Below are positions 958 to 38,150 of a stretch of DNA of 44,552 bases, piece after piece; position 1 is the stretch's first letter; each line of letters begins with the position of its first letter. Made by a program: the position numbers and the translations under genes. The notes under the pieces were generated by a model. The model was not told the origin of the DNA. It searched no databases and saw nothing but the letters and a program-made list of their open reading frames with translations. This DNA is from Prevotella sp. (GTDB lineage Bacteria > Bacteroidota > Bacteroidia > Bacteroidales > Bacteroidaceae), in assembly GCA_017475005.1 (NCBI GenBank), contig JAFVGI010000048.1, forward strand, positions 1-44,552. Reading direction: 5' to 3'.

Positions 958-2217
958 TTGCGAGAGAAATGCCCATGGGATAATAAACAGACAAACGAAT
1001 CGCTTCGACCTCATACTATTGAGGAAGTATATGAGCTCTGTGACGCCATCCTCTCTGATGATCCAAAGGAGATACAGAAAGAGATGGGTGATGTCATGGA
1101 GCATCTTGTTTTCTATGCCATGATAGGCAGGGAAAAGGGACTTTTCGATATGGGGGATGTGTTGGAGAAAGAAGCTGACAAACTGGTATTCAGACATCCG
1201 CATATCTATGGCGACAAGACTGCTGAAAACCCAGATGAGGTAAGCAAGATATGGGAGCAGGTGAAGCAGAAGGAGAAGGATGGTAACAAGACTGTCCTGT
1301 CTGGTGTTCCGAAGTCGCTGCCATCTTTGATAAAGGCTTACCGCATTCAAGACAAAGCACGTAATGTGGGCTTTGACTGGGAAGAGAGAGGAAATGTATG
1401 GGAGAAGGTATATGAGGAGATAGGAGAGCTGAAAGAAGAATTTGAGAAAGGAAACAAAGAAGCAGCAGAGAAGGAATTGGGCGACTTGCTCTTTGCCATC
1501 GTGAATGCTGCACGATTATATCATATGAACCCTGATACGGCTTTGGAACACACGAACCGTAAGTTTATCACTCGATTCGAGTATATAGAGAAAAAAGCTC
1601 AGGAGATGGGGCGTAATATTAAGGACTTAACTCTTGGAGAGATGGAAAAACTTTGGCAAGAAGCAAAAGGTGTGTTGCTGTGTATTATGACTATCCTTTT
1701 TGTCGCAGCATGTACTAATACAACGAGACCTAACATGGATATCGAGGATGAAATGGTTGGGGCTCCTGACAGTGCGATATATGGTACTGTGGGCGATGCT
1801 ACCAGTATGCATGTGTTGACGATTGTTACAGACAATGGTCGCGAGATGGCAGTAGCAATGAATCAGGATACTATCCTTTCTAATATTCAGGGCGGTCTGT
1901 ATGCTGGCGACAATATCTGTGTGACGACAATGCCTGACCCTTCTGATCCGAAGAGGGGAATGAAGATGGTTGCAAAGGCTGTGAACCTAACATCATTGCT
2001 GGGTCATTGGATTTCGCTGGACCGTAACTTCACTATAAAGGAGAACGGCATAATAGAGGCCAAAAACAATATTGAGTCAAAGCCTTATACCTCATGGCAG
2101 ATGAGAAACTGTCAACTGATTCTCAATGCCGATACTTTTGATATCATAGCCCTGACTCCTGATTCCTTGGTGCTCGAAGGAAGCGATGGAGTGTATGGAT
2201 ATAAACGTAAGAAATAA
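958..2217 (+). CDS. mazG: MazG nucleoside triphosphate pyrophosphohydrolase fused in frame to a lipoprotein
   Basis: MazG hydrolyses (d)NTPs to NMP and pyrophosphate in the cytoplasm. The first roughly 240 codons match full-length MazG: CPWDNKQT near the start, EEVYELCDAI, a first KEMGDVMEHLVF helix pair, then the second repeat GFDWEERG, EEIGELKEEFEKG and EKELGDLLFAIVN. The stop expected after EKLWQEAK is absent, and the frame runs into a lipoprotein (signal-like segment, then Cys at codon 252). The first canonical start is TTG at 958, which would cut the conserved N-terminus. The frame is open and MazG-like from 898, where AAG-CAT-ACA stands in place of the expected ATG-CAT-ACA. This could be a fused gene, two overlapping genes, or an assembly error at the start. 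Confidence 0.82.
   Translation: MREKCPWDNKQTNESLRPHTIEEVYELCDAILSDDPKEIQKEMGDVMEHLVFYAMIGREKGLFDMGDVLEKEADKLVFRHPHIYGDKTAENPDEVSKIWEQVKQKEKDGNKTVLSGVPKSLPSLIKAYRIQDKARNVGFDWEERGNVWEKVYEEIGELKEEFEKGNKEAAEKELGDLLFAIVNAARLYHMNPDTALEHTNRKFITRFEYIEKKAQEMGRNIKDLTLGEMEKLWQEAKGVLLCIMTILFVAACTNTTRPNMDIEDEMVGAPDSAIYGTVGDATSMHVLTIVTDNGREMAVAMNQDTILSNIQGGLYAGDNICVTTMPDPSDPKRGMKMVAKAVNLTSLLGHWISLDRNFTIKENGIIEAKNNIESKPYTSWQMRNCQLILNADTFDIIALTPDSLVLEGSDGVYGYKRKK
1642..2217 (+). CDS. Lipocalin-like lipoprotein, in frame with the end of MazG
   Basis: The second half of the fused frame looks like an independent lipoprotein of about 190 residues. Starting at the in-frame ATG 1642 gives MEKLWQEAK as a charged n-region, then GVLLCIMTILFV, lipobox VAAC with Cys at 1711-1713, and a short TNTTRP tether. 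GTG 1672 and ATG 1687 are other possible starts but leave no basic n-region. The mature part has a small beta domain (DSAIYGTVGDATSM to VVAKAVNL-like region) and then a lipocalin-like domain (LLGHWISLDRNFTIKENG, LVLEGSDGVYGYKRKK). Whether translation restarts here or the protein stays fused to MazG cannot be told from sequence. Confidence 0.55.
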   Translation: MEKLWQEAKGVLLCIMTILFVAACTNTTRPNMDIEDEMVGAPDSAIYGTVGDATSMHVLTIVTDNGREMAVAMNQDTILSNIQGGLYAGDNICVTTMPDPSDPKRGMKMVAKAVNLTSLLGHWISLDRNFTIKENGIIEAKNNIESKPYTSWQMRNCQLILNADTFDIIALTPDSLVLEGSDGVYGYKRKK

Positions 2218-2242
2218 CGTTTAACGGTTAACGTTTATCGGT
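2215..2242 (+). repeat. Heptad array, unit TAACGKT
   Basis: Four 7-bp units (TAACGTT, TAACGGT, TAACGTT, TATCGGT) and a partial fifth. The first three bases are the stop codon of the MazG-lipoprotein frame. Because the period is 7, TAA falls in all three frames. Confidence 0.85.
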
Positions 2243-2261
2243 TATAGAGAGGGGAAAAGAT

Positions 2262-2294
2262 TAAGGGCTGGCATTAAAAAAATGTCAGCCCTTA
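2262..2294. terminator. Hairpin between convergent genes
   Basis: TAAGGGCTGGCATT pairs with AATGTCAGCCCTTA with one G-U pair and a five-A loop. It sits between the plus-strand lipoprotein end and the minus-strand operon end. U-tracts are weak on both sides (TCTTTTCC on the minus side). Confidence 0.6.
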
Positions 2295-2414
2295 AAGAAA
2301 AATTGACTGTCTCACGACAATCAACCTTCATTAACCTTAATAATCTAATACCATGAAAAACACGATGCAAAGGTATGGATTATTTTTTATATCTACAAAT
2401 TTTTTGTACTCGTA

Positions 2415-2894: not shown

Positions 2895-2901
2895 AGTGGT
2901 G

Positions 2902-4494: not shown

Positions 4495-4501
4495 CTTTTT
4501 C

Positions 4502-6986: not shown

Positions 6987-7366
6987 ATCAGTATCTTGGC
7001 CTTATCGCTGGCATTCTTGTGTCAGAGGAAAGTCCGGGCAGCGCAGAGCGCTCCACTTGCGAAACTACAAGCTATTGGTGACAGTAGGTGTTAACAGAAG
7101 AAAATAACCGCCGGCGCATAATTCTTGCTGAGTCAAACGAAGTCGGATAATGTGCGCAGGTAAGGGTGAGAAGGTGGTGTAAGAGACCACCAGGTAGTTG
7201 GTGACAACTATGCTGTGTTTTCTGGAGGCTGCAAGTTCATGTATACCATCGTCATGATAGGGCTGCTCGCCCGAATTCTTCGGAATACGGTGGAGGGTAG
7301 AACGCTTAGATAAATGATAGGGCACTGGTTTCACCAGTACAGAACCCGGCTTATAGAGATACTGAT
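6987..7366 (+). ncRNA. rnpB: RNase P RNA, bacterial type A
   Basis: The conserved 5' core GAGGAAAGTCCGGGC lies at about 7025-7039, and the 3' core CAGAACCCGGCTTAT at about 7340-7354. The ends pair as P1 (ATCAGTATCT with AGATACTGAT). Internal landmarks include GGTAAGGGTGAGAAGGTG, a P8-P9-like region, and GATAAATGATAGGGCACTGG. The RNA cleaves the 5' leader from pre-tRNA together with RnpA. A T-rich run (TTCTTTTTTC) right after the P1 strand can end transcription. No TAnnTTTG lies just upstream, so it may be the tail of the YtxH-holin transcript. Confidence 0.95.
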
Positions 7367-7395
7367 TTCTTTTTTCTGAATTTCTGTTTTAATTT

Positions 7396-7430
7396 TTAAC
7401 TCTTAACTCTTAATTATAAACTATAAACTA
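7396..7430 (+). repeat. Heptad array, units TTAACTC / TAAACTA
   Basis: Five 7-bp units: TTAACTC twice, TTAATTA once, TAAACTA twice. It runs directly into the BrkB-like reading frame, and the last units are read as its first codons. Confidence 0.8.
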
Positions 7431-8595
7431 TCCCAACTCCATATACACTTTCATTCGCGCTTTTATCGCAGATATCGACCAAAAGCGTGTTATTGGTACA
7501 GCGAGTAACCTTACATACTCCTCGCTGCTTGCCTTTGTACCTATTCTCGCAGTATTCTTTGCTGTTGCGAGAGGTTTTGGATATTCTGTGTATATCGAAG
7601 ACTGGTTCCGTGACCTTCTGTCGTCACAACCGGATGCAGCAGAGACGATAATAGGATTCGTGAACTCCTATCTCGTACATACTAAGAAAGGAATATTCCT
7701 CGGCATCGGACTTCTCTTTATGTTGTGGACAACGCTGATGCTGATTTCAAATATCGAGAGTGCCTTCAATGATATCTGGCATGTGAAGCACCCCAGAAGC
7801 ATCTTTCGCACCATTACGGATTATGTCTCATTATTCTTCCTGTTGCCTATCTTCCTCGTTGTCAGCTCTGGTCTGTCAATATGGGTTACGGCATTGCAGG
7901 ATCAACTTAGCGATGTCATTGTCTTGGGACCTATCATGACATTCTTTATAGAATTGTCACCTTACATCCTCCTGTCAGCAGGCTTTGTCTGCCTGTATGT
8001 CTTTATGCCTAACACAAAGGTGAAATTCAGCTCTGCCCTTTGGCCGGGCGTCCTGGCAGGTATATGTATGCAGATCTTCCAGATGGTGTATATCAATTCC
8101 CAGATATGGATATCCAATTACAACGCCATCTATGGCTCCTTTGCCATGATACCGTTCTTTCTGTTGTGGCTGCAGACATCATGGATAATATGCCTCATGG
8201 GAGCCGAGCTGACCTATTGTAAGCAGAATTCGGAAGATTTCTTCTCTAACGAACCCAGCGAGACCTCAGGCTATTCCTTCAATACACGCCTGGAGCTGTC
8301 ATGGACCATCATGGAACATATTGCAGAGCGTTTCAGCAATGGTGAGGATGCCTATACTGCAGAAGAGATAAAGGAGATGCTCAATGCTGATGTGGTCGCA
8401 AGGGGAGGGAGCAAGAAGATTCCGATGAAACTGGTCGATAACCTGTTGTCCGACCTTCAGGATATTCATTTCCTTGCCGAACTCGTTCATGACGAAAAAG
8501 GCGATACCGCCCGTTATCTGCCTAACGAAGCATTAAAAAATCTCACAAAAGAAGAATTGTATAACAGGCTCTCCAACCTTGGAGTGAAAATATAA
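7420..8595 (+). CDS. YihY/BrkB-family membrane protein, start codon unclear
   Basis: This is an inner-membrane protein of the YihY/BrkB (formerly 'ribonuclease BN') family, whose function is unsettled. The in-frame part before 7588 is clearly family sequence: FIRAFIADIDQKRVIGTASN, then LTYSSLLAFVPILAVFFAVA. About six membrane helices follow, with FNDIWHVKHPRS, YVFMPNTKVKFSSALWPG and NAIYGSFAMIPFFLLWLQTS as family landmarks. The roughly 110-residue cytoplasmic tail may be a winged helix (YTAEEIKEMLNADVV). The frame is open from 7420, just after a stop at 7417. No ATG, GTG or TTG occurs before GTG 7588, which is too late. The 5' end merges with a heptad array, so the native start may have been lost. 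Confidence 0.8.
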   Translation, partial: TINYPNSIYTFIRAFIADIDQKRVIGTASNLTYSSLLAFVPILAVFFAVARGFGYSVYIEDWFRDLLSSQPDAAETIIGFVNSYLVHTKKGIFLGIGLLFMLWTTLMLISNIESAFNDIWHVKHPRSIFRTITDYVSLFFLLPIFLVVSSGLSIWVTALQDQLSDVIVLGPIMTFFIELSPYILLSAGFVCLYVFMPNTKVKFSSALWPGVLAGICMQIFQMVYINSQIWISNYNAIYGSFAMIPFFLLWLQTSWIICLMGAELTYCKQNSEDFFSNEPSETSGYSFNTRLELSWTIMEHIAERFSNGEDAYTAEEIKEMLNADVVARGGSKKIPMKLVDNLLSDLQDIHFLAELVHDEKGDTARYLPNEALKNLTKEELYNRLSNLGVKI

Positions 8596-8620
8596 TTTTG
8601 AATTTTGAATTAGGAATTTT
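8593..8620 (+). repeat. Heptad array, unit GAATTTT
   Basis: Units TAATTTT, GAATTTT, GAATTAG, GAATTTT. The first bases are the BrkB stop codon. TGA recurs across unit junctions. Confidence 0.75.
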
Positions 8621-9359: not shown

Positions 9360-9399
9360 CAATAACCATTAATCGTTAACCGTTAACCGTTAAACTTTA
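9360..9399 (-). repeat. Heptad array, unit TAACGGT
   Basis: On the minus strand the smpB stop TAA opens the array: TAAAGTT, TAACGGT twice, TAACGAT, TAATGGT, then TATTG. It fills the whole spacer from the smpB stop to four bases before the recR TTG start. Confidence 0.85.
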
Positions 9400-9876
9400 A
9401 AAGTGTTTAATAGCCCTTTCCATCTCTCTCTTGTCCTGCTTCAATTTAAGAGTCTCACGTTTGTCAAATTCCTTCTTGCCTCGGCATAGTGCGATGTCCA
9501 ACTTTGCCCGTCCCTTGTCGTCAATGAAGAGTAGGGTAGGGACGATGGTAAAACCTACAGCCTTGGTGTCCTCTTTCAGATGGCGAATCTCCCTCTTGTT
9601 CAGTAGCAGTTTTCTGTCTCTGCGAGCCTCGTGGTTGTTATATGAGCCATAGAAATACGGACTGATGTTCATGCCCTTCACCCACATCTCGTCATTATGA
9701 ATGTAGCAGAAGGTGTCCACCAGCGACGCCTTTCCCATGCGGATACTCTTTATCTCTGTGCCAGTCAATACTATGCCGGCGGTATAAGTATCTACAAAAT
9801 GGTAGTCAAAAGCGGCCTTCTTGTTCTTTATCTGTACCGGACTTTTCTTGCGTAAAAGTTCCTGTTCTTTGTTCAT
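9397..9876 (-). CDS. smpB: SsrA-binding protein SmpB
   Basis: SmpB binds tmRNA and delivers it to stalled ribosomes for trans-translation. The 159-residue protein has the conserved N-terminal part ([20 protein letters not shown]), [40 protein letters not shown] and the basic tail [14 protein letters not shown]. It is probably co-transcribed with recR downstream. A -7 element lies 20 bp upstream of the ATG. Confidence 0.97.
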
Positions 9877-10767: not shown

Positions 10768-11778
10768 ATGATTCGCGAAGTAAAATTTGAGTCACAAGAT
10801 CGTCGTATCAAGCAGATACTCGCTGCTCTGAACGAGAATGGTATTTCTTCTATTGAGGAAGCAAACGAAATATGTGAGAAGGCAGGTCTCGACCCTTACA
10901 AGACATGTGAGGAGACACAGATGATCTGTTTCGAGAATGCTAAGTGGGCTTACGTAGTAGGTTCTGCTATTGCATTGAAGAAAGGCTGCAAGACAGCTGC
11001 TGATGCTGCTGAGGCAATCGGTATCGGTCTGCAGGCATTCTGTATCCCTGGTTCTGTTGCTGACGACCGTAAGGTAGGTATCGGCCACGGTAACCTCGCA
11101 GCACGTCTGCTCCGTGAGGAGACAGAGTGTTTCGCATTCCTCGCAGGTCACGAGTCATTCGCAGCTGCTGAGGGCGCTATCAAGATTGCAGAGATGGCAA
11201 ACAAGGTACGTCAGAAGCCACTCCGTGTCATCCTGAACGGACTTGGCAAGGACGCTGCTATGATTATCTCTCGTATCAACGGCTTCACATACGTACAGAC
11301 ACAGTTCGACTACTACACAGGTGAGCTGAAGGTAGTTAAGACAAAGTCATACTCTGACGGCCCACGTGCAAAGGTGAACTGCTATGGTGCTGACGACGTT
11401 CGTGAGGGTGTAGCAATTCTGTGGAAGGAGAACGTAGATGTATCTATCACAGGTAACTCTACCAACCCAACACGTTTCCAGCACCCAGTAGCTGGTACAT
11501 ACAAGAAGGAGCGCGTACTCGCTGGTAAGCCTTACTTCTCAGTAGCTTCTGGTGGTGGTACAGGTCGTACGCTGCACCCAGACAACATGGCTGCAGGACC
11601 TGCATCTTACGGTATGACAGATACCCTCGGACGTATGCACTCTGACGCACAGTTCGCTGGTTCTTCTTCAGTACCGGCACACGTTGAGATGATGGGCTTC
11701 CTCGGCATTGGTAACAACCCAATGGTAGGATGTACAGTAGCATGCGCCGTAAACGTAGCACTTGCACTGAACAAATAA
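10768..11778 (+). CDS. GGGtGRT protein
   Basis: A 336-residue protein carrying the eponymous signature SGGGTGRTLHPDN at about 265-277. Other conserved segments are AFCIPGSVADDRKVGIGHGN, RVILNGLGKDAAMIISRING and GFLGIGNNPMVGCTVACAVN. The family is named only for its motif and its function is unknown. Glycine-rich loops and conserved His/Cys suggest a nucleotide- or metal-binding enzyme (inference). It is consistently paired with the NifU-like gene, as here. Codon use is strongly biased (GGT, CGT, AAG), which points to high expression. A strong terminator follows. Confidence 0.9.
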   Translation: MIREVKFESQDRRIKQILAALNENGISSIEEANEICEKAGLDPYKTCEETQMICFENAKWAYVVGSAIALKKGCKTAADAAEAIGIGLQAFCIPGSVADDRKVGIGHGNLAARLLREETECFAFLAGHESFAAAEGAIKIAEMANKVRQKPLRVILNGLGKDAAMIISRINGFTYVQTQFDYYTGELKVVKTKSYSDGPRAKVNCYGADDVREGVAILWKENVDVSITGNSTNPTRFQHPVAGTYKKERVLAGKPYFSVASGGGTGRTLHPDNMAAGPASYGMTDTLGRMHSDAQFAGSSSVPAHVEMMGFLGIGNNPMVGCTVACAVNVALALNK

Positions 11779-11798
11779 TACATTATTTATATATAAAA

Positions 11799-11836
11799 AA
11801 AGAGGCATATCATACGTTGATATGCCTCTTTTTTTA
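11799..11836 (+). terminator. Rho-independent terminator of the GGGtGRT operon
   Basis: AAAGAGGCATATCA pairs with TGATATGCCTCTTT around TACGT, followed by an eight-T run. Perfect stem. Confidence 0.93.
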
Positions 11837-11854
11837 AGAAAGTACGGAAAAATA

Positions 11855-11917
11855 TTTAAACTTTACACTTTAAACTTTAAACTTACCACTGACTATAAAC
11901 TATAACCTTAACCGCTA
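11855..11917. repeat. Heptad array, mixed units
   Basis: About nine 7-bp units: TTTAAAC/TTTACAC first, then TTACCAC, TGACTAT, AAACTAT, AACCTTA, ACCGCTA. The unit changes along the array but the phase holds. The right end supplies the last codons (Val-Ser-Gly) and stop of the decayed P5-like gene. Confidence 0.75.
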
Positions 11918-12158
11918 ACCATCTCATAGCCCTCAGCTATGATTCGTTTCTCTACCGCTTTGCCATTCTCTACATCGTCATTGCGTAGGCGAGGTCTATC
12001 ATGTTCTGCTTTTCCTTGAAGGCAATGATGGCATCGGGATTCAGGCCGCTTATCTCCACCACGTGCTTCAGGTACGCGTTGGTGTTGTTCTTCTTGGGCG
12101 GTGCCCATCGGTTGATGATAAAACGGACAGTATAGCAATGATGCTCTGCTTCCTTATT
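11908..12158 (-). pseudogene. Decayed structural protein P5 / lysozyme-like gene
   Basis: On the minus strand one frame encodes YTVRFIINRWAPPKKNNTNA, then YLKHVVEISGLNPDAII and IDLAYAMTM, which is the core of the phage-derived 'structural protein P5' (muralytic) family. A stop at 11970-11972 interrupts it. Shifting one base restores VENGKAVEKRIIAEGYEMV, the family's C-terminal helix, ending in codons supplied by the heptad array. The N-terminal half is missing. This reads as a truncated, once-frameshifted remnant of the peptidoglycan-hydrolase genes that Bacteroidales often carry with HU and smalltalk genes. Confidence 0.7.
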
Positions 12159-12208
12159 TCACTCCTCTATCACTCCCTTTTTTTACTCCCCCTTTTAAAT
12201 TAAACACT

Positions 12209-12325
12209 ATGGATGAATAGATTTTTTGGCAGGTGTTGGCTAAGGTGATAGTAGCCGCACTCACAGCTGCATTGACAGCAATAACAACTACATCATGTAT
12301 GGGATATGGCCCCATTAACGGTTAA
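12209..12325 (+). pseudogene. Smalltalk-like small protein with an early stop
   Basis: From ATG 12209 the frame is MDE-stop-IFWQVLAKVIVAALTAALTA and ITTTSCMGYGPING, with TAG at 12218-12220. The hydrophobic helix ending in TTTSC is the pattern of the roughly 30-residue 'smalltalk' proteins found beside P5/amidase genes in Bacteroidales. A start at GTG 12233 would skip the stop, so expression is not excluded. The final TAA is part of the adjoining heptad array. It lies opposite in strand to the P5 remnant, so the locus has been rearranged. Confidence 0.5.
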
Positions 12326-12351
12326 CGGTTAAAGGTTAGCGGTTAGCGAAA
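12317..12351 (+). repeat. Heptad array, unit AACGGTT
   Basis: AACGGTT twice, AAAGGTT, AGCGGTT, AGCGAAA. It contains the stop codon of the smalltalk-like frame. Confidence 0.8.
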
Positions 12352-12356
12352 AGTAA

Positions 12357-12391
12357 AAGGGCAAGGACTGCATTGCGCAGTTCCTGCCCTT
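12357..12391 (-). terminator. Terminator of the deoxysugar operon
   Basis: AAGGGCAGGAACTGC and GCAGTCCTTGCCCTT form a 15-bp stem with two weak pairs on the minus strand. TTTTACTTTT follows. It lies 28 bp past the rhaD stop. Confidence 0.8.
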
Positions 12392-12418
12392 GTTTGTTAT
12401 TGACAATATTTCGTGATT

Positions 12419-13240
12419 TTAGCAGGGACGGGTCTTGGGGAGGTTGAAGACATCCTGCACTTCTTTCATCTGGGCGTCTGTCATGCCATCGGGTTCTGAA
12501 CCCATAGCCTTGGCACACATATAGATGTTGGCTGCCTTGCAGAGTACATCGGTCTGGTCGAAGGCGTCCATGATGTCCTGGCCTACAGCAACGGTGCCGT
12601 GCTTCTCCCACATCACTACATCGTGCTTCTTGATGCCTTCGAGGGTGGCCTTTGCCAGTTCTACGGAAGAAGGCAGGTCGTAAGGGATGATGCCGATGCC
12701 TAATGGGGCAAAGGCGAGTGTCTCAGGAATCATTGACCACAGCACCTTTGTCATCTCGTCGCCCTTGAGGAAACGCTGGATGTGTGACATAGCAACGAGT
12801 TCGATAGGGTGGGTGTGGAGTGTTGCCTTATAGCAGGAACCTGTCTCGAGCAGATAGTTCTGCAGGGCGAGGTGTGTTGGCAGCTCGCTGGTTGGGGCTA
12901 CTGGCTCATCGGCAATAATCTCGTAGCTAGCGCAGTCGTCGCAGATGCGTACGATAGAGCCGTTCTGCATTGGCTCCTTTGCGAGGTCGCGCATACGCTT
13001 GCCTGTACCTTTACAATAGAAATACTTTCCCTTCAGGTGGGGCAGCACCATGCCAATCTGCTTCACTTCCGAAATGGCTTTCATGGCCTTGCACTCATCG
13101 TCCATAAACTCGGTGACGTTGACGGTGATGTTACCGCCGTTACGTTCTGCCCAACCTTTCTGCCACAGGTAACCTGTTACCTCGGCAATCTGATATACTA
13201 CCGCCTTCAATCCTTCGCGGCCGTCTAAAATTGATTTCAT
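12419..13240 (-). CDS. rhaD: Rhamnulose-1-phosphate aldolase
   Basis: This zinc class II aldolase cleaves L-rhamnulose 1-phosphate to dihydroxyacetone phosphate and L-lactaldehyde. Length is 273, against 274 in E. coli. The phosphate-binding region RNGGNITVN (33-41) is present. Zinc ligands LHTHP (His142, His144) and WEKHG (His214) and the catalytic-region glutamate (Glu119) are in the expected order. It is the last gene of the minus-strand kinase-isomerase-transporter-aldolase operon, with a terminator just downstream. The spacer to the transporter gene is five heptad units. Confidence 0.95.
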   Translation of the reverse strand: MKSILDGREGLKAVVYQIAEVTGYLWQKGWAERNGGNITVNVTEFMDDECKAMKAISEVKQIGMVLPHLKGKYFYCKGTGKRMRDLAKEPMQNGSIVRICDDCASYEIIADEPVAPTSELPTHLALQNYLLETGSCYKATLHTHPIELVAMSHIQRFLKGDEMTKVLWSMIPETLAFAPLGIGIIPYDLPSSVELAKATLEGIKKHDVVMWEKHGTVAVGQDIMDAFDQTDVLCKAANIYMCAKAMGSEPDGMTDAQMKEVQDVFNLPKTRPC

Positions 13241-13243
13241 ATT

Positions 13244-13278
13244 TTCTTAATTCTTAATTCTTAACTCTTAACTCTTAA
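13244..13278 (-). repeat. Perfect five-unit heptad array, TTAAGAR
   Basis: On the minus strand TTAAGAG occurs twice, then TTAAGAA three times, exactly in phase. It lies between the transporter stop (TAG, 13279-13281) and rhaD, with only AAT before the rhaD ATG. It is the entire intergenic spacer, and its AAGA content is the only ribosome-binding-like sequence. Confidence 0.92.
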
Positions 13279-14615: not shown

Positions 14616-14649
14616 TCAATTATCAATTATCAATTTCAATTGTCAATTA
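14616..14649 (-). repeat. Heptad array, plus-strand unit TCAATTR
   Basis: Plus strand: TCAATTA twice, a 6-bp TCAATT, TCAATTG, TCAATTA. The last unit contains the isomerase stop. The unit is the same as in the GH106 signal-peptide array at 35620-35647, but in the opposite orientation to its genes. Confidence 0.85.
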
Positions 14650-16102: not shown

Positions 16103-16130
16103 TACATTCTTCACTTTTCACTCTTCACTT
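16103..16130 (-). repeat. Heptad array encoding the end of the kinase
   Basis: Minus strand AAGTGAA, GAGTGAA, AAGTGAA, GAATGTA. The first units are read as the C-terminal Val-Lys-Ser-Glu-Lys and the TGA stop of the rhamnulokinase. Confidence 0.75.
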
Positions 16131-27838: not shown

Positions 27839-28613
27839 CAGGAGGGTTATATACTCGCTATTATTTCTATTGGCATTCTGGCAACACTCCTTCGCACAGG
27901 AGGTGGCTACCCAGATAGCCATAGGGCACGCAAACCATCTTGATACTTATCTGTCGCCAGAAAAATACAGAGGAATAGAATTTCGCTTTATATCCGAGGT
28001 GTTGAAAACGAAGGTGATGTTTCAACACGAGGGAGATATGTCTTTTACCAGTAATCGTGCCAATAACGCAGATGAGGTTTCCGGACATTATGACTTCACC
28101 TTTGCTATGATGCATAAGTGGTCGTGGTGTGACGATAAACTGACGCTGAGAGTCGGTGGAATGGCGGATTTGTGGTTGGGATTTGCATACAACACCCGTA
28201 ATACAAACAATCCTGCACAAGGGTATGTATCGTTAGCTGTCGGACCACAGATAATGGCTTCGTACAAATTGTCTGCTATTATGAAACAGCCCGACAAAAA
28301 GTTCCTGAAATTTCTCTCGACGATAACGGTAAATTATCAGATGCGGATGCCTTGGTTGGGAATGATGTTCTCACCAAACTATGGGCAGTCATATTATGAG
28401 ATTTTCTCTCGCGGAAACTATGACCATAATATAGTGTTCACCTCCCTTGCTACCTTCCAGATGAGACAGCAGGTGAGTCTTGATATCCCGTTGAGAAACA
28501 GAACCTCCTTGCGAGTCGGATATATATCGGACATCCGTCAGGCAAAGCCAAATAACCTTAAGCAGCATCAGTACTATAATGCAGCAACAATAGGAGTGGT
28601 GATTAGGAAGTGA
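27831..28613 (+). CDS. DUF3316-like secreted protein
   Basis: A 260-residue protein with a signal peptide (MSSRRVIYSLLFLLAFWQHSFAQ) and beta-strand-rich sequence with alternating aromatic residues (YDFTFAMMHKWSW, MADLWLGFAYNTR, RTSLRVGYISDIR), like a small outer-membrane barrel. It fits DUF3316, a Bacteroidales family of unknown function. ATG 27831 is preferred to the TTG at 27825. It overlaps parC by 8 bp. The stop lies in a heptad array. Confidence 0.75.
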   Translation: MSSRRVIYSLLFLLAFWQHSFAQEVATQIAIGHANHLDTYLSPEKYRGIEFRFISEVLKTKVMFQHEGDMSFTSNRANNADEVSGHYDFTFAMMHKWSWCDDKLTLRVGGMADLWLGFAYNTRNTNNPAQGYVSLAVGPQIMASYKLSAIMKQPDKKFLKFLSTITVNYQMRMPWLGMMFSPNYGQSYYEIFSRGNYDHNIVFTSLATFQMRQQVSLDIPLRNRTSLRVGYISDIRQAKPNNLKQHQYYNAATIGVVIRK

Positions 28614-28630
28614 GAGGTGAAAGGTGAAAG
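28610..28630 (+). repeat. Heptad array, unit GTGARAG
   Basis: GTGAGAG, GTGAAAG, GTGAAAG. The TGA stop of the DUF3316-like gene is inside the first unit. Confidence 0.8.
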
Positions 28631-29113
28631 ACGGCCTCGCGCGGGTAGAGGGTTTTAGGAAAAAAAACGGAAAAACCCCTTCCGATGTCTTGATGCTCTT
28701 TCAGAGCCTTTGTGTCAGGCGTAATACCTGTGTCTATAAAAACAAGCTTTTAAGCCACAGCTATTCCACTTACCACAATCACTTGCGTGATTCAAACCAT
28801 CGTCAGGCAAAAACACCAGACCTTTGGTCCTAAAAAACAATTTTTTATCTCTTGTAGAACAGAAAAAAGTTTTGGTTAAGGTCATCGTTAAGGTTGAAGA
28901 AATGTTTTTCAGGTTTGGAACAAACCGAGGTTTTTGCCATTGACAGGATGTTAAGACTCTGTAAGAGGTAAGAGGTAAGGCGGAGATTTTTAGCTGCAAG
29001 CTCGCTTGTAAGTAGAAAGATACGACTTACATCGGAAAAGGGCTGAATGCACTTACATCCAGACAATGGGGTTTTTATGGTTTTTGTTAAATAAAATTAT
29101 GCATTATGAACTA
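28631..29113. other. Intergenic region with no supported gene
   Basis: No frame has family likeness. It contains another heptad array (GTAAGAG twice and GTAAGGC, 28961-28981), a small hairpin (AATCAC-TTGC-GTGATT, 28777-28792), two TTAAGGT copies (near 28876-28900) and ATTATGC/ATTATGA steps (about 29097-29110) next to the S41 start. Confidence 0.5.
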
Positions 29114-30272: not shown

Positions 30273-30449
30273 CATCCGGAAAGTGTTAATCGCGTTTTAC
30301 ACATCCATGCGAATATAGTAAATTGCTGTTTACATATTGCGCGGATAGATGTAAACTATTTTTACCACGCTAAAATACCTGACCTATCTGGAGGAAGCCC
30401 GTTTGATACACCCTCTGTATTAAAATTTTTTTTAAGCCATCGCCAGTAG

Positions 30450-30526
30450 TTGTTAGTTATTAGTTATTAGTTATTAGTTGTTAGTAACTAGAAACTAGAA
30501 ACTAAAGACTAGAAACTAGAAACTAG
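30450..30526 (+). repeat. Eleven-unit heptad array, TTATTAG then AAACTAG
   Basis: TTGTTAG, TTATTAG three times, TTGTTAG, TAACTAG, then AAACTAG-type units five more times, all in one 7-bp phase. TAG recurs in nearly every unit. Confidence 0.92.
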
Positions 30527-30587
30527 AAAAAGTTTAGCGGTTAGCCCAGATGTAGCCGAGAATTCAATTTTCTTAACTAAAAATAGT

Positions 30588-30970: not shown

Positions 30971-31005
30971 TTATTGGTTATAGGTTATTTGTTATTGATT
31001 AACAA
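30971..31005 (+). repeat. Heptad array, unit TTATTGG
   Basis: TTATTGG, TTATAGG, TTATTTG, TTATTGA, TTAACAA. It lies upstream of the beta-flower gene promoter. Confidence 0.7.
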
Positions 31006-31054: not shown

Positions 31055-31095
31055 CGGTGAAATGATTGATTAACCTTATTCAATTGTAAATGTTT

Positions 31096-32559
31096 ATGAA
31101 ACGTAGTACTACATTTCTTTGTATGGCTATGGCAGCCATGTTTGCACTTAGCACCCCGACTGAGGCACAGTGGGGCAGTCTGCTGAACAAAGCACGCAAG
31201 GCTGCTGGTATCAAAACAAAGCAGGAGAAGGCACAAGATGAAGCAAAGCATCGTCAGGACTCTATCCAAACGGCCATCAAGAGCATCACACCAACTATCC
31301 CGCAACCCGCTAAGACAGGCGCACCTAATGTCATAAAATGGGGCGACACAAAGATTGGCGAGTGGGACCCAGTGAACCTGGAGATTACCTTCAACCAGAC
31401 GTACGACGAGGGTGAGTTGGCCGGACAGAAGGTGAGCTACAAGTTAGACCCCAACACGGGCGTGTGGACCAGCAAAAAGGGCACTAACGTGGGTCAGATG
31501 AGCAACGACGGAACCATCCAGTCGCCCAACCTGGGCACCCTGAAGTTCGATCCAGAGAAGTGCACGGTATCGATGGACGGCGAGGTGATAGGCAAGGTGA
31601 ACCTGAAGACTGCCTATGCATTCGACAAAACCATTGGTAGTTTCGAGGGCCACGTTAGTCCGCTGCTGGTGGCCTTTACCTTCTACGGCTCGCTGATATC
31701 GAAGAAACAGGTGGCCGAGTGGAAAGAGGCTAAGCTGAAGGTCGAACAAAAGGCCAAAGAGCGTGCCGAGCGTGAGCGTCAAGCCCGCATTGAGCGCGAA
31801 GAGGCCCTGAAGAAGGAGTGGGCTGCGCTGAACATGGAGATAACAAGCAGCTCCAACTCTACGCTGGGATACATCCGCGCAAACGGTACAGTTGAAAACA
31901 GCTCGCACTCTACCATCGGATACATCAAGACGAGCGGCGAAGTAGAAAACGGCAGCCACTCAACGATTGGCTACATCAGAGACAATGGTACAGTAGAAAA
32001 CAGTTCTCACTCAACCATCGGCTACTATCGCAACGGCTGTTTCGAAGACAGTTACCACAGCACCGCTGGCTACTTCTGCAATGGCGATGTAGAAAACAGT
32101 TCGCACTCTACCATCGGAAAAATACGTGGTGGCAGCAATAAGACCATAGTTGCCGCAGCTGTGTATTTCTTCTTCTTTAAAGACAAGATTCAAAGCAACC
32201 GCATCAGCAGCGGCGGTCGCGATTGTGAACTCTACAGAAGCGGAAGCAAGTTTGGCGAGATTCGCTCTAACGGCGATGTATATATAGGTGGCAGCCAGAA
32301 GGGCCAGTTGCGCTCTAACGGCGACATCTATGTAGGCGGTAGCTGCAGAGGCGAAATCCGCTCGAGCGGCGACATCTACAAGAGTGGTAGCAAGGTTGGA
32401 GAAGTACGTTCGAATGGTGATGTGTATGAAAATGGAAGCAAAGTAGGCGAAGTACGCTCTAACGGTGATGTTTACAGAAACGGCAGTAAGATAGGCGAAG
32501 CACGAAGCATGGGCGATGCCAAAAAGGTTGCCGTAGTCTATTTCTTCGGATTCTTTTAA
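31096..32559 (+). CDS. Secreted repeat protein resembling 5-fold beta-flower proteins
   Basis: A 487-residue protein with the signal peptide MKRSTTFLCMAMAAMFALST, then PTEAQ. Parts in order: a mixed domain with IGEWDPVNLEITFNQTY and a glycine-zipper-like DKTIGSFEGHVSPL; a charged coiled coil (about 215-245, KAKERAERERQARIEREEAL); five copies of a 20-residue repeat (SSHSTIGYIK-x2-G-x-VE); a hydrophobic break (TIVAAAVYFFFF); and six copies of an approximately 15-residue repeat (GSKVGEVRSNGDVY). The last type is what Bacteroidales 5-fold beta-flower proteins show. The two YFF-type hydrophobic ends bracket the second repeat block. Function is unknown; surface or structural use is a guess. An in-frame ATG at 31090 is also possible. 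Confidence 0.75.
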   Translation: MKRSTTFLCMAMAAMFALSTPTEAQWGSLLNKARKAAGIKTKQEKAQDEAKHRQDSIQTAIKSITPTIPQPAKTGAPNVIKWGDTKIGEWDPVNLEITFNQTYDEGELAGQKVSYKLDPNTGVWTSKKGTNVGQMSNDGTIQSPNLGTLKFDPEKCTVSMDGEVIGKVNLKTAYAFDKTIGSFEGHVSPLLVAFTFYGSLISKKQVAEWKEAKLKVEQKAKERAERERQARIEREEALKKEWAALNMEITSSSNSTLGYIRANGTVENSSHSTIGYIKTSGEVENGSHSTIGYIRDNGTVENSSHSTIGYYRNGCFEDSYHSTAGYFCNGDVENSSHSTIGKIRGGSNKTIVAAAVYFFFFKDKIQSNRISSGGRDCELYRSGSKFGEIRSNGDVYIGGSQKGQLRSNGDIYVGGSCRGEIRSSGDIYKSGSKVGEVRSNGDVYENGSKVGEVRSNGDVYRNGSKIGEARSMGDAKKVAVVYFFGFF

Positions 32560-32572: not shown

Positions 32573-32610
32573 AAGCCGTAAGCAATTTGTAGCTTACGGC
32601 TTATTTTTTT
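32573..32610. terminator. Terminator between convergent genes
   Basis: AAGCCGTAAGC and GCTTACGGCTT form an 11-bp perfect stem followed by ATTTTTTT on the plus strand. It may also serve the minus-strand gene. Confidence 0.9.
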
Positions 32611-32638
32611 CACCTTTGACCTTTGACCTTTCACCTTT
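32611..32638 (-). repeat. Heptad array encoding the end of the S-component
   Basis: Plus strand CACCTTT, GACCTTT twice, CACCTTT. On the minus strand GAAAGGT/CAAAGGT units carry the TGA stop, and the flanking AAAAGG gives the last Lys-Arg codons. Confidence 0.8.
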
Positions 32639-33113
32639 TACTACATATCAGGTATGTTCCTGCAATCTGGAGGAGTATGCCGGGCCAGCCGATGGTGAAA
32701 TCGGCAATGGTGGCTGCGATGCCGCCTGTGAGGGCGAGTTCGCCAAGACCTCCAAGGACTGCTGCTGACACTACGACGCCTGCGAGGATTGGCAGTGTCG
32801 CCTTGCGGAAGTGTTGGGCTGCAAAGCCTGCTACAAGAGCGAGGACGATGAGCTTAAGTGTCATTACCTGCAGCACTCCCCATGCTGGCATGCCTGTGGC
32901 ATAGTGGTTTACCAAAGGGGAGAGGACAGCGGCAATAAGGGCCGGCTTCCACCCGAAGGTATATGCACCTGCCATAATGACGAACGACAGGGGAGCAAGC
33001 ATCACTCCGCCTTGCGGAATGAGGTGACATAACTGGGGCAACACGAGGTTGCTGAGAATGAAGACAGCGGACCAGAAATAGGTGCGTACTTCATTGAAAG
33101 CTAGAGTATTCAT
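32631..33113 (-). CDS. ECF-type transporter S component-like membrane protein
   Basis: A 160-residue, nearly all-hydrophobic protein with five or six helices (TYFWSAVFILSNLVLPQL, GGVMLAPLSFVIMAGAYTFG, LIAAVLSPLVNHYATGMPAW, LIVLALVAGFAAQHF, FTIGWPGILLQIAGTYLIC). This matches the substrate-binding S components of energy-coupling vitamin transporters as annotated in Bacteroidales. No ATPase or T-component gene is nearby and no riboswitch is visible, because the upstream spacer is all repeat. The substrate is unknown. It is probably co-transcribed with pgm. Confidence 0.65.
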   Translation of the reverse strand: MNTLAFNEVRTYFWSAVFILSNLVLPQLCHLIPQGGVMLAPLSFVIMAGAYTFGWKPALIAAVLSPLVNHYATGMPAWGVLQVMTLKLIVLALVAGFAAQHFRKATLPILAGVVVSAAVLGGLGELALTGGIAATIADFTIGWPGILLQIAGTYLICSKR

Positions 33114-33117
33114 TCTG

Positions 33118-33222
33118 TAACGTTTAAAGTTTAACGTTTAAAGTTTAAAGAGTTTAAGGTCAAAGGTCTAAGGTCTAAGGTCTAAGGTCGCTAACCGTTA
33201 ACCGCTAACCGTTAACCGTTAT
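33118..33222 (-). repeat. Fifteen-unit mosaic heptad array
   Basis: On the plus strand: TAACGTT/TAAAGTT alternating (five units), TTTAAGG/TCAAAGG, TCTAAGG three times, then CCGTTAA/CCGCTAA alternating. One 7-bp phase holds over 105 bp while the unit changes three times. It fills the whole pgm to S-component spacer, and the pgm stop is at its right edge. Confidence 0.93.
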
Positions 33223-34958: not shown

Positions 34959-35009
34959 TGTCTTATATGCGTTTAGGTTTGAAAATGATTTTCTTAAACA
35001 TGCTGTCTG

Positions 35010-35017
35010 CAAAGATA
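35010..35017 (-). promoter_or_regulatory. -7 element for the phosphomutase gene
   Basis: The minus strand reads TATCTTTG. The leader to ATG 34958 is about 48 nt. Confidence 0.65.
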
Positions 35018-35101
35018 TGAAAAAAAAATATAGTAACCTAATATGTATGTTATTTTTTTATAATTTTTTTTTATTTGCCTTGCAGAATTATACTTTTTTG
35101 T

Positions 35102-35109
35102 TATTTTTG
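35102..35109 (+). promoter_or_regulatory. -7 element for rlmH, close to the start
   Basis: TATTTTTG ends eight bases before the ATG at 35118, giving a predicted leader of about five bases or fewer. Confidence 0.6.
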
Positions 35110-35117
35110 CACGACAG

Positions 35118-35588
35118 ATGAAGGCCGAACTAATCCTTATAGGCAAGACCACAGACAAACATCTTCAGGCGGGTATTGATGACTATGTGGGACGCATAGG
35201 GCACTATATGCCTTTTGCGCTGACCGTTATCCCTGAGCTGAAGAATACGAAATCGCTTTCAGAAGACCAGCAGAAGACATTGGAGGGAGAGGCGATACTG
35301 AAACTGCTGCAGCCTTCGGACACACTGGTGATTCTTGACGAGAAGGGTAGGGAATACCGTTCTGTGGAGTTTGCCTCGTGGCTGGCAAAACGGCAGCAGA
35401 CAGCACGACGGCTGGTGTTCCTCATAGGAGGGCCTTATGGCTTCTCGGAGGCAATTTATGAGAGGGCTAACGAGAAAATATCACTCTCGAAGATGACATT
35501 CTCACACCAACTGGTGAGACTGATTTTCGCAGAACAACTATACCGAGCATGTACTATTAACAAAAACGAACCATACCATCATGAATAA
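35118..35588 (+). CDS. rlmH: 23S rRNA pseudouridine(1915) N3-methyltransferase RlmH
   Basis: A 156-residue SPOUT methyltransferase that methylates pseudouridine 1915 of 23S rRNA. The knotted C-terminal half is conserved: LVFLIGGPYGFSEAIYERA, SLSKMTFSHQLVRLIFAEQL and YRACTINKNEPYHHE. The strand VILDEKGREYRSVEFA precedes it. It overlaps the GH106 gene by eight bases. Confidence 0.97.
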   Translation: MKAELILIGKTTDKHLQAGIDDYVGRIGHYMPFALTVIPELKNTKSLSEDQQKTLEGEAILKLLQPSDTLVILDEKGREYRSVEFASWLAKRQQTARRLVFLIGGPYGFSEAIYERANEKISLSKMTFSHQLVRLIFAEQLYRACTINKNEPYHHE

Positions 35589-38118
35589 GAAACGTTTCCT
35601 TCTTTTTGTTTTTCTCCTTTCAATTGTCAATTGTCAATTGTCAATTATCTTCGCTCAGGACACTACCTCTCCAGGTGCCCGCTGGTGGTGGTTGGGAAGT
35701 GCCGTTGATAAGGAAAACCTCCGATGGAATATGGAGCAGTATGCCAGTCACGGCATCAAGGCATTGGAGATTACTCCGCTGTATGGTGTGAAGGGTAATG
35801 AGGCCAATAACATCGACTATCTCACTCCGAAATGGATGGAGATGTTGAGGTATGTGGAAGAAGAGGGAAAGCGTCTGGGTATTCAGATAGATATGAATAA
35901 TGGTACAGGATGGCCCTTTGGCGGTCCGACGACACCTATTGAGGAGGCTGCCTGCAAGGCATTGATGATAGATACCATCGTGACAAAGGCGAACTTTGAC
36001 AAGGGCATCGACTTCGCTGTTCCTGCGAAGGAGAAGAAATATGCGAAGCTGGACTTTGTGCAGTGTTACCCTACGGGCGAGAAGGACAAGGTTCGTGTGA
36101 TAGCCCTCTATATCAGTCGCACCCGTCAGCAGGTAAAACGTGCTGCGCCTGGTGGACAGGGATATGTGATAGACCATTTTGACAAGGATGCCGTAAAGCA
36201 TTATCTGGAGAAGTTTGACAAGGCCTTCAGCGAGACAAATACACCTTGGCCAAATACTATCTTTAATGATTCGTATGAGGTGTATGAAGCTAACTGGACT
36301 CCTACCTTGCCGGCAGAGTTTGAGAAACGCAGAGGATACTCCCTCAAGGAGAATATCAACAAACTGGTGGACAGAGATCCGCAGGTGGTGAGTGACTACA
36401 GAGAGACTCTCTCGGACATGCTGCTGGATAACTTCACAAAGCAATGGGTGGCGTGGGCACACGGTCATAATATGAAGGTGAGAAATCAGGCTCATGGCTC
36501 TCCGGCAAACCTGTTAGACCTGTATGCTGCTGTGGATATACCAGAGATAGAGGGCTTCGGGCTTTCGGAATTTGGCATCAAGGGCCTGCGTGTAGATCCT
36601 GGTATGACGAAGCTGAATGACTCGGACTATTCAATGTTTAAGTATGCCCCATCTGCTGCCCATGTGAGTGGTAAGAACCTCGTGTCGTCCGAGACCTTTA
36701 CGTGGCTGACGGAGCATTTCCGCACCTCGTTGTCGCAGATGAAGCCCGACCTCGACCTGATGTTCTGTGCAGGTGTGAACAGGATGTTCTTTCACGGCAT
36801 CTGCTATTCTCCAAAGGATGACCAATGGCCCGGATGGAGGTTCTATGCTTCTATTGATATGTCGCCGACAAACAGCATCTGGAGGGATGCGGAGTATTTC
36901 AACCGCTACGTAAAGACCTGTCAGACGATGCTGCAGAGCGGAAAGCCTGATAATGATGTGCTGGTATATTTCCCCGTCCGTAATCTGTGGAAGGATAATA
37001 CCAAGACGCTGTTGATGCAGTTTGCTATTCATAATCTCGGAGAACTGGCACCAGCCTTCAAGCGTTCCATTCTGGAACTCGATTCGCTGGGCTATGACTG
37101 CGACTATATCTCAGACCGCCAGCTGCTGGCGTGCCAGTCGGCAGCGCTCGCAAACGGCGCCTGTGGCATTATGACGGAGGCAGGGATACAGTATAAGGCG
37201 CTGCTGATACCTGATGGCGCTATACTGACACCAGCGTTGAAGGAGCATATTGAAGAACTGCAGAAGCAGGGTGTAAGCATCATATACGGCAACGACGAGA
37301 AGAAACTGCAACAGGTGGCTGTGCCGGAGATGATGAAGACACAATATGGGCTGAAGATGATACGCAGAAAGTCGGATGTGGGATATGATTATTTCATTGC
37401 CAACCTGACACCTAACGATGTTGATGGTTTCGTAACGCTTGCAGTACCATTTAAGGATGCACAATGGTTTGAGCCGCTGACAGAGAAATCGTTTGCAGCA
37501 GATATAGAAGACAACAGCATCAGAATGAATCTCCGTTCTGGAGAGTCTATCATTCTGCATACCTTCTCTGTACCGCAGAACGCACAGCTGCCGGAGCGTT
37601 ATGTTACTGAGGCTTTCGGTTCAGAAATCCCATTGGATGGCAAATGGACGCTGAGGTTTACGGAGGAGGCACCAAAGGTAAATGGAACCTTCACCCTGAA
37701 CAGCCCACAGACATGGGAGACTCTTTCTCAAGAAGCTGCTGTGACAATGGGAACAGGCGTCTATGAGACAACCTTTAAGATGGGTAAGCCGGAAGGACAA
37801 TATGCCATTGACCTGGGCGACGTGAGAGAGTCAGCAAGGGTGTATATCAATGATGTCTTTGTGGGATGTGCTTGGAGTGTGCCATACATACTGAATTTTG
37901 ACAGCTCTGTACTGAAGAAGGGAAAGAATACTCTTCGCATCGAGGTGACGAATCTGCCTGCCAACCGCATCGCAGACCTTGACAGAAAAGGGGTGGAATG
38001 GCGAAAGTTTGAGGAGATTAATGTGGTGGATATAAAATACCAGAGGACTAAATATGACAAATGGGCTCCTGTACCATCTGGCTTGAACTCGAAAGTGAGA
38101 ATTTATTCTGTGGAATAA
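35581..38118 (+). CDS. Glycoside hydrolase family 106, alpha-L-rhamnosidase
   Basis: An 845-residue secreted enzyme with signal MNKKRFLLFVFLLSIVNCQL and cleavage after FAQ. The GH106 core begins at once with ARWWWLGSAVDKENLRWNME and GIKALEITPLYGVKG, followed by IDMNNGTGWPFGGP, IFNDSYEVYEANWTP, KVRNQAHGSPANLLDLYAA and the region FHGICYSPKDDQWPG. A C-terminal beta-sandwich (about 680-840; YAIDLGDVRESARVYINDV, LRIEVTNLPANRI) probably binds sugar. It would release L-rhamnose from pectin-type glycans and so feed the rhamnose operon. Part of its signal peptide is encoded by a heptad repeat. It is coupled to rlmH by an 8-bp overlap. Confidence 0.9.
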   Translation: MNKKRFLLFVFLLSIVNCQLSIIFAQDTTSPGARWWWLGSAVDKENLRWNMEQYASHGIKALEITPLYGVKGNEANNIDYLTPKWMEMLRYVEEEGKRLGIQIDMNNGTGWPFGGPTTPIEEAACKALMIDTIVTKANFDKGIDFAVPAKEKKYAKLDFVQCYPTGEKDKVRVIALYISRTRQQVKRAAPGGQGYVIDHFDKDAVKHYLEKFDKAFSETNTPWPNTIFNDSYEVYEANWTPTLPAEFEKRRGYSLKENINKLVDRDPQVVSDYRETLSDMLLDNFTKQWVAWAHGHNMKVRNQAHGSPANLLDLYAAVDIPEIEGFGLSEFGIKGLRVDPGMTKLNDSDYSMFKYAPSAAHVSGKNLVSSETFTWLTEHFRTSLSQMKPDLDLMFCAGVNRMFFHGICYSPKDDQWPGWRFYASIDMSPTNSIWRDAEYFNRYVKTCQTMLQSGKPDNDVLVYFPVRNLWKDNTKTLLMQFAIHNLGELAPAFKRSILELDSLGYDCDYISDRQLLACQSAALANGACGIMTEAGIQYKALLIPDGAILTPALKEHIEELQKQGVSIIYGNDEKKLQQVAVPEMMKTQYGLKMIRRKSDVGYDYFIANLTPNDVDGFVTLAVPFKDAQWFEPLTEKSFAADIEDNSIRMNLRSGESIILHTFSVPQNAQLPERYVTEAFGSEIPLDGKWTLRFTEEAPKVNGTFTLNSPQTWETLSQEAAVTMGTGVYETTFKMGKPEGQYAIDLGDVRESARVYINDVFVGCAWSVPYILNFDSSVLKKGKNTLRIEVTNLPANRIADLDRKGVEWRKFEEINVVDIKYQRTKYDKWAPVPSGLNSKVRIYSVE
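35620..35647 (+). repeat. Heptad array inside the GH106 signal peptide
   Basis: TCAATTG three times then TCAATTA. It encodes SIVNCQLSI, the hydrophobic core of the signal peptide. Three 7-bp units equal seven codons, so the frame is kept. There is no stop on the sense strand. Confidence 0.9.
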
Positions 38119-38150
38119 CGTTTAACGGTTAAAGGTTAACGTTTAAAGTA
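38116..38150 (+). repeat. Heptad array, unit TAACGKT
   Basis: TAACGTT, TAACGGT, TAAAGGT, TAACGTT, TAAAGTA. It begins exactly with the GH106 stop codon. Confidence 0.9.

Follow-up and report, generated by a model that had tools for sequence, protein, structure and literature searches.

Tandem heptamer arrays with a common degenerate vocabulary at gene ends and inside genes of Prevotella

Why should many spacers of one bacterial genome hold short tandem repeats that agree in period and differ in unit? The question is raised by a 44,552-bp stretch of Prevotella sp. DNA (the window hereafter; contig C39 of a 72-contig, 2.36 Mb assembly of 2,361,937 bp, genome G000). Heptamer repeats had been observed here and there among bacteria, their origin being put down tentatively to slippage, and the cyanobacterial STRR repeats are tandem heptanucleotides like the Prevotella arrays. 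Many of the Prevotella arrays can be compared between orthologues, even in conserved enzymes, so that origin in place and copying from a pool become testable against each other.

Period-7 arrays in the window, the genome and related genomes

A preliminary description of the window listed 17 spacers with period-7 arrays in clean phase. Period-7 runs are present at all 17 positions, but not all of these are spacers, as one array lies in an open reading frame (35620-35649) and another covers final codons (16110-16129). A uniform scan of the window revealed 19 period-7 segments (17 noncoding, two mainly coding), four segments at period 6 and none at periods 4, 5 and 8. The arrays at the 17 positions are as follows.

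2215-2245, plus strand: heptamer array CGKTTAA, starting on the stop codon of a MazG-family gene (958-2217)
7387-7431, minus strand: array TTAACTC/TATAAAC, downstream of RNase P RNA (6988-7369)
8594-8618, no strand assigned: array AATTTTG, on the stop codon of gene 7588-8595
9360-9401, minus strand: array CGGTTAA, overlapping the stop of gene 9397-9876 (minus)
11855-11908, minus strand: array AGTTTAA, containing the dispersed interruption AGTCAGTGGTAAGTTTA
12315-12348, plus strand: array CGGTTAA, having (as has 11855-11908) exact blocks in common with arrays at L006:2338-2696
13244-13280, minus strand: array AGTTAAG, occupying the whole spacer between the stop of 13279-14610 (minus) and the start of 12419-13240 (minus)
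14616-14648, minus strand: array AATTGAT/AATTGAC, interrupted by a phase break and taking up the whole of a short co-directional spacer
16110-16129, minus strand: array AGTGAAG, covering the final codons and stop of gene 16111-17589 (minus)
28607-28630, plus strand: array AGGTGAA, at the stop of gene 27870-28613
28961-28979, plus strand: array GTAAGAG, within a long spacer
30447-30529, minus strand: two-unit array, TTAGTTA then GAAACTA, whose chimeric junction is found again at L122:13476
30971-30996, plus strand: array TGGTTAT
32608-32641, minus strand: array AGGTCAA/AGGTGAA, across the stop of gene 32631-33113 (minus)
33118-33221, no strand assigned: composite with three component arrays (33118-33150, 33156-33189, 33189-33221), which together occupy an intergenic spacer
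35620-35649, minus strand: coding array TCAATTG, at about codon 13 of a GH106-like gene (35581-38118)
38116-38149, plus strand: array CGKTTAA, starting on the stop codon of gene 35581-38118

Clean phase is not kept throughout (TRF gives 7% indels at 14616); the switching of units midway without loss of phase, also described previously, can be seen at 33118-33221.

The window has further features of its own. Positions 2293-2363 (minus strand), close to the array at 2215-2245, match the Bacteroidetes FopS paralogous sRNA family of Rfam and look conserved in three relatives (G060, G061, G062). Several partial copies of positions 12208-12348, a part of the spacer 11778-12419, occur in relatives; this part codes for a short hydrophobic peptide containing an in-frame stop, perhaps similar to what is annotated as "smalltalk protein". 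Gene 31090-32559 contains coding tandem repeats of 48-51 bp (31848-32504).

A first sample of G000 comprised the window and 20 further stretches (444,552 bp in all, 44,452 bp of it noncoding according to a hexamer gene caller). It contains 102 noncoding arrays at period 7; the corresponding counts at periods 6, 8, 11 and 14 are 15, 7, 21 and 76, period 14 being the double of 7. Spacer pieces alone contain 97 period-7 arrays versus a mean of 1.0 in ten dinucleotide shuffles, and noncoding identity is 0.329 at lag 7, compared to 0.305 at lag 6 and 0.296 at lag 8. The lag-7 excess on which the preliminary description hinged is thus real, and noncoding period 7 exceeds the other periods as well as the shuffles, as in heptameric simple sequence repeats (SSRs). 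Coding DNA holds 31 arrays at period 7 and 0 to 4 at each of periods 4, 5, 8, 10, 11 and 13, with identity at lag 7 (0.2525) barely exceeding that at lags 2 (0.2513) and 8 (0.2504). When the arrays are masked, lag 7 in the spacers is at background, and no fossil arrays were detected elsewhere in them.

The arrays are not a peculiarity of one assembly. Period 7 also leads in 80 Prevotellaceae loci (116 pooled noncoding arrays, versus 16 at period 6 and 39 at period 8), with an uneven spread, 30 of the 80 loci having none; three arrays are present in the 22.6-kb locus of MN60, apparently an isolate. A random sample of the phylum gave four period-7 arrays in 14 stretches, which indicates that array-richness is patchy. 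Pattern-based counts in relatives catch only words near the query and were not taken as densities. In G059 (another family of the same order), seven stretches picked by heptamer pattern (L125-L131, 140 kb) contain 38 period-7 and 15 period-10 noncoding arrays; in each of the ten other genomes examined alongside it there is at most one period-10 array.

A common degenerate heptamer

According to the preliminary description, the units share their length, are free in sequence and do not descend from one repeat. This does not hold for a larger G000 sample (613,675 bp of 2,361,937 bp; some of the added stretches were chosen at known array matches, so that densities lean high). An EM alignment over rotation and strand of the 173 noncoding arrays sampled there revealed one degenerate heptamer in common, approximately MRKKNAD (roughly A/C-G/A-T/G-T-N-A-A/G/T). 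It scores 5.55 bits per unit, versus 3.88±0.09 (maximum 4.03) for letter-shuffled units and 3.43±0.14 for random spacer heptamers, and its vocabulary includes CGGTTAA, AGTTTAG, AGTTAAG, AATTGAC, AGTGAAG and AGGTCAA. Variation between neighbouring units is not free either, being concentrated at motif positions 7 (27% of the differences) and 1 (21%), with 11% at position 2 and the fewest at position 6 (6.5%); the chi-square for this position bias is 173, versus at most 52 for a random register and at most 83 for column-permuted arrays refitted. We examined 11 other genomes, with between 9 and 73 arrays, most of them selected because of array-rich loci or through a pattern. In each, the genome's own consensus beats all 30 shuffles, narrowly in G217 (6.55 versus 6.47), and the own-genome motif exceeds shuffled units in every case.

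Such a consensus bears on a rival explanation, pure local slippage with a 7-nt step, in which random heptamers would expand independently at each spacer, the step perhaps corresponding to a polymerase contact length. The strict period fits this explanation, as does the decay of unit identity from 0.83 for neighbours to about 0.57-0.60 at eight or more units, which shows that local amplification takes place too. The same excess in unrelated bacteria (PMC4692102, in excerpt) is also in its favour. A consensus common to the arrays is not what independent expansion would give, and we regard slippage as the sole cause as rather unlikely.

Transitions account for 0.32 of the neighbour-unit differences, compared to 0.65-0.68 of the between-species differences at codon position 3 and 0.49-0.53 elsewhere in noncoding DNA; a share of about 0.3 is roughly what unrelated bases would give. 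We considered the bias towards G-T/A-C transversions as the signature of a mutator and rejected it, as the copying of a few founder words explains it as readily. Tandem arrays of period 11 are also in excess (20 of the 21 noncoding ones in spacer pieces, versus 0.7 in shuffles; an example is L121:12591-12812, beside 21 further noncoding arrays). Their transition share of 0.60 is more ordinary and suggests perhaps a different process.

The preliminary description knew of no described counterpart in Bacteroidales, but Paludibacter, a Bacteroidales genus, provides one. TAACTGA heptamer direct repeats are described in Beggiatoaceae, some cyanobacteria and five Bacteroidetes, namely P. propionicigenes and four others (MacGregor 2015, PMC4679880, in excerpt). 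Judging from the same excerpt, these repeats resemble the Prevotella arrays in being intergenic tandem sets of 7-mers, some split by related 7-mers, in sometimes overlapping gene ends or lying in ORFs, and in varying in presence among relatives; some of the Bacteroidetes sets adjoin other heptamer repeats. However, the excerpt describes one exact heptamer located, in BOGUAY, mostly just upstream of start codons, whereas the Prevotella arrays represent a whole vocabulary and are found mostly at 3' ends. Exact (TAACTGA)2 occurs nowhere in the 613,675 bp of G000 and twice in 81,052 bp of G057 (same order, other family). Among the open-access literature matches listed, there were no such arrays in Prevotella or Bacteroidales beyond those of MacGregor (2015).

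Another likeness is to heptameric G-rich SSRs, GGGAATC/GGGANTN in Xanthomonas and GGGGA(C/T)T in Nostoc (PMC4692102, in excerpt), which also have period 7, a degenerate consensus and intergenic location; most of the repeats of two Xanthomonas species have the same neighbouring genes and vary in length and sequence. According to that text they are G-quadruplex sequences with another consensus, and GGGAATC scores 2.2 bits on the Prevotella motif, a value reached by 27.5% of all heptamers. The excerpt does not mention repeats invading enzymes. The same source cites Mrazek (2007) for a general over-representation of heptamer SSRs in bacteria, with slippage proposed as the cause. Repeats with units of 4-11 bp are elsewhere described as normally or weakly over-represented in prokaryotes, and mismatch repair as less efficient for longer loops (PMC4060949, in excerpt). 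The heptamer SSR excess, the slippage guess and position-conserved, sequence-variable repeats (in Xanthomonas) are already in print, as the excerpted part of PMC4692102 indicates. As far as we have seen, what is new is the multi-word vocabulary under one consensus, the 3'-end placement with boundary-dependent orientation, the replacement of words at conserved positions and the vocabulary-matching gains inside core enzymes.

Position and persistence at gene ends and inside genes

For 156 arrays there is a flanking gene no more than 1 kb away on either side; their spacer is co-directional in 115 cases, convergent in 35 and divergent in six (the underlying spacers total 40.1, 7.5 and 13.5 kb, respectively). 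An array is present in 22 of the 37 convergent spacers, 83 of the 265 co-directional ones and 6 of the 43 divergent ones. Among 128 arrays located at most 60 bp from a gene boundary, 95 have a 3' end as the nearest boundary and 33 have a 5' end, so that the preference of the TAACTGA family for sites upstream of start codons is not found here. The motif points outward in 73 versus 22 arrays at 3' ends and in 25 versus 8 at 5' ends.

Many arrays (42 of the 102 noncoding ones of the first sample) span a stop codon or start at one. This could be taken to mean that a 7-base unit containing a stop codon closes all frames after the gene, and indeed 74 of 82 sense units near 3' ends have a stop (58.4±3.5 when shuffled). 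Enrichment is no weaker on the antisense strand (59 versus 35.3±3.8), one array stands behind an RNA gene, and others lie inside ORFs. We rejected a three-frame-stop function on the antisense control and give it hardly any credence. That the array at 7387-7431 follows RNase P RNA also means that a stop codon is not required.

The closest named relatives of the window are the Prevotellaceae MAGs L025, L030 and L032 (G060, G061 and G062, respectively). Their gyrase/topoisomerase A-family protein is 96-97% identical to that of the window, and the matching DNA of the window and two other regions is about 75-93% identical over long stretches. We compared 24 window spacers with these genomes, not all of them mapping in every genome. 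In 3' spacers the arrays are kept at the orthologous position and their words are often changed. Behind the stop at 28613, the words at the same position in the four genomes are GGTGAAA, AGTAAGA, TGTCAAA and AAGTTAA; orthologues of the spacer at 8594-8618 carry a CGGTTAA-type array in G061 and a CTTTAAA-type array in G062; and the spacer of the composite at 33118-33221 contains arrays in G060, G061 and G062 as well. Where they could be mapped in relatives, the divergent spacers 5979/6149, 9876/10051 and 34958/35118 are similar among the genomes and lack arrays; another divergent spacer, 17589/17723, contains an array in G062.

For arrays whose two flanks could be mapped, the orthologous place also held an array in 45 of 52, 28 of 30, 31 of 36 and 16 of 19 cases. 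When the first genome has an array, the spacer is also occupied in the second (17/21, 11/12, 11/14, 5/6) far more often than when it has none (1/14, 2/8, 3/9, 1/7). The best 16-base similarity of orthologous arrays is 0.83-0.87 versus 0.74-0.75 for random arrays, and only a fraction of 0.19-0.33 of them beats more than 95% of random-array draws; their mean similarity rank of 0.69-0.82 (0.5 being random) implies that some ancestry remains between them.

Length tells a different story from the copying with a 7-nt step that had been suggested for the window. Among 44 comparisons of spacers with arrays in both genomes (overlapping genome pairs of moderate divergence, thus not independent), the length difference is a multiple of 7 in six, which is the chance expectation of one in seven, and none of the 44 is of equal length, compared to 9 of 19 array-free G061-G062 spacers. 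Something copies the arrays, but a pure step is not visible; the whole 7-nt steps between relatives that would mark slippage in heptameric SSRs are likewise not seen, which counts against local slippage. The alignment of orthologous spacers suggested earlier thus revealed a position that is usually kept and a unit that is often changed, and no length changes by 7 beyond chance.

Conserved occupancy combined with sequence that is often not conserved could also mean that a protein reads the heptamer on RNA or DNA, selection keeping an array at every gene end while the unit drifts within the motif; MacGregor's proposal for TAACTGA (PMC4679880, in excerpt) is a parallel. The resistance of motif positions 2 and 6 to change, the dependence of orientation on the gene boundary and the scores of the own-genome motif in 11 of 11 (mostly array-rich or pattern-chosen) genomes would agree with such binding sites. 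On the other hand, an array is present in 105 of 302 non-divergent spacers, most of them thus being without one, as are 30 of the 80 related loci, and arrays interrupt glutamate synthase, asparagine synthase and the small chain of carbamoyl-phosphate synthase, where a gene-end signal would hardly be meaningful. We therefore consider binding sites unlikely. Most likely the arrays have no cellular function or an incidental one, and are tolerated where neither a promoter nor a protein core is hit.

At a threshold of 10 we listed 43 coding arrays, 41 of them in ORFs of more than 100 codons and ten running into the stop codon. The internal ones are translated to peptides such as SSLFTLHSSL, NSQLSIINSQL and KSEELRVKSE. 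Seven coding arrays were checked against orthologues; one had no orthologue, and six lie in variable segments in which relatives have either a different repeat or an array, whose unit is another one or, in some cases, the same. For the GH106-like gene, the G062 orthologue has TTTTCAC where the window has the TCAATTG array (35620-35649). Eight proteins were scanned for domains, one being without a match at 1e-8. The array is situated between Pfam domains in glutamate synthase (G060 and G061, at different sites) and in asparagine synthase (G062), and inside the GATase domain in the carbamoyl-phosphate synthase small chain (G062). Persistence in frame in such enzymes argues against an assembly error.

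The arrays show a route from noncoding repeat DNA to protein loops and N-terminal sequence. In these Prevotellaceae they make it harder to assemble MAGs, to compare spacers and to annotate gene ends. Repeat DNA is also found in frame in core proteins of Rickettsia, as elements within ORFs; those elements are palindromic, whereas the Prevotella insertions are heptamer arrays. Other short dispersed repeats are located in the same variable spacers and coding loops (the loops of L120/L005 and of their orthologues, and the G062 orthologue of window 2217/2415), namely GC-rich palindromes (CTCCCC...GGGGAG) and a second, hairpin type, CGCTCGGC...GCCGA.

Gains, recurring blocks and the source of the words

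An array-free, shorter orthologue was found for 16 of 168 array clusters. We used ten of them as gains and excluded six, which were other-genome views of a used locus, had an "empty" allele with a different repeat or a short array, or aligned poorly. The units of the ten gained arrays score 6.06 bits versus 1.41 when shuffled, and are words of the genome's own vocabulary. The exact 7-base unit is absent from eight of the ten empty sites and present in two (L108:11491, L109:5789). By best 12-base match, nine empty sites are no more array-like than other empty sites; at one mismatch (6 of 7 bases) they look like any other site in a test without power, and a mutated single-copy seed may have been present in them. 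The four cleanest gains, for which two or three relatives are array-free and no relative has an array, score 8.8 (L165:4158), 5.7 (L164:12056), 7.5 (L163:16692) and 4.6 bits (L163:18654), and their exact unit occurs in none of 11 empty alleles. L109:5789 and L105:1716 represent one spacer, with a two-unit remnant in G060 and arrays in other genomes, and for L164:13780 there are arrays in two relatives; these three may be losses elsewhere instead of gains. Local slippage could start from the exact units at two of ten empty sites and from possible one-mismatch seeds, but gains that match the vocabulary at the eight sites without an exact unit speak against it.

Sequence recurs at unrelated loci. 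The interruption AGNCAGTGGWAAGTKTA (at most one mismatch) occurs 22 times in G000, 11 times in G060, 16 times in G061, 43 times in G062 and three times in G063, with no occurrence of the reversed-pattern control. Blocks of at least 24 exact bases within arrays are common to 44 pairs of different G000 stretches, among them the chimeric junction at window 30447 and L122:13476 and the pair formed by window 11855-12348 and L006:2338-2696. The recurrence of exact blocks and odd interruptions at unrelated loci suggests that words travel, which again contradicts a free unit sequence. Slippage alone, the general explanation for heptamer SSRs, covers neither the shared interruptions nor the vocabulary-matching gains.

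We therefore favour, with a probability of about 0.45, the reading that the arrays form one dispersed heptamer family maintained by copying from a pool into tolerant sites, local homogenisation and overwriting. Array DNA from other parts of the genome would be copied into sites where an insertion does little harm (spacers at gene 3' ends, operon gaps, loops or linkers of proteins). After arrival, it would be subject to local homogenisation or slippage and be overwritten repeatedly by other words of the pool, so that the position would outlive the unit. Microhomology annealing or template switching of short strands could insert DNA and at the same time replace what was there, a pattern to which the asparagine synthase alignment points, and short-patch double illegitimate recombination in Acinetobacter is a precedent for such a step. 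Replication slippage combined with microhomology template switching or short-strand annealing appears likelier than a dedicated transposase. Both the origin of the gains from elsewhere and the copying step itself are what we infer from these patterns.

Several findings stand against copying from a pool. Neither a copying enzyme nor a donor was identified, the boundary-dependent orientation is not obviously predicted by neutral insertion, the seed tests are weak (with the exact unit in the empty site for two of ten gains), and orthologous arrays keep some resemblance while genome-specific homogenisation is not seen. Array similarity is 0.918 within G000 versus 0.909-0.917 between genomes, and lower within G060; as similarity within a genome hardly exceeds that between genomes, genome-specific concerted evolution was rejected. 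Pure drift of independent pools would not predict a vocabulary about as common to the species as it is within one, and functional constraint or a conserved source could account for it.

A bolder version would be a hitherto undescribed DNA-writing process, working without a known reverse transcriptase or transposase, that lays and overwrites arrays of a conserved repertoire at sites without a prior copy. Its repertoire would be stable across species and the words would change per locus, at gene ends and in protein loops; we regard this as improbable. Very improbable in our judgement is a dedicated writer, i.e., a reverse transcriptase or REP-associated (Y1) transposase inserting arrays from a template. 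It would explain vocabulary-matching gains without an exact local unit as well as the vocabulary common to four species, but in assemblies that are incomplete or of unstated completeness RVT_1 (PF00078) has no match in G000, G060 and G061 and one in G062, and Y1_Tnp (PF01797) none in the former three and two in G062, one of them above the cut-off; for G000, 81% complete, such absence is no proof. Furthermore, a target duplication was not apparent by eye in the 16 gain alignments. Across 47 genomes, RVT_1 is present in 15 and Y1_Tnp in 29.

As to a mobile carrier, the array-saturated positions 1-500 of stretch L118 (contig C7 of G000, 14.9 kb) gave no match in plasmid and phage collections with the BLAST low-complexity filter on. 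In L118, several spacers are saturated with arrays organised in higher-order repeats of about 39-67 bp, which are built on AGTCAGTGGAAAGTGTA.
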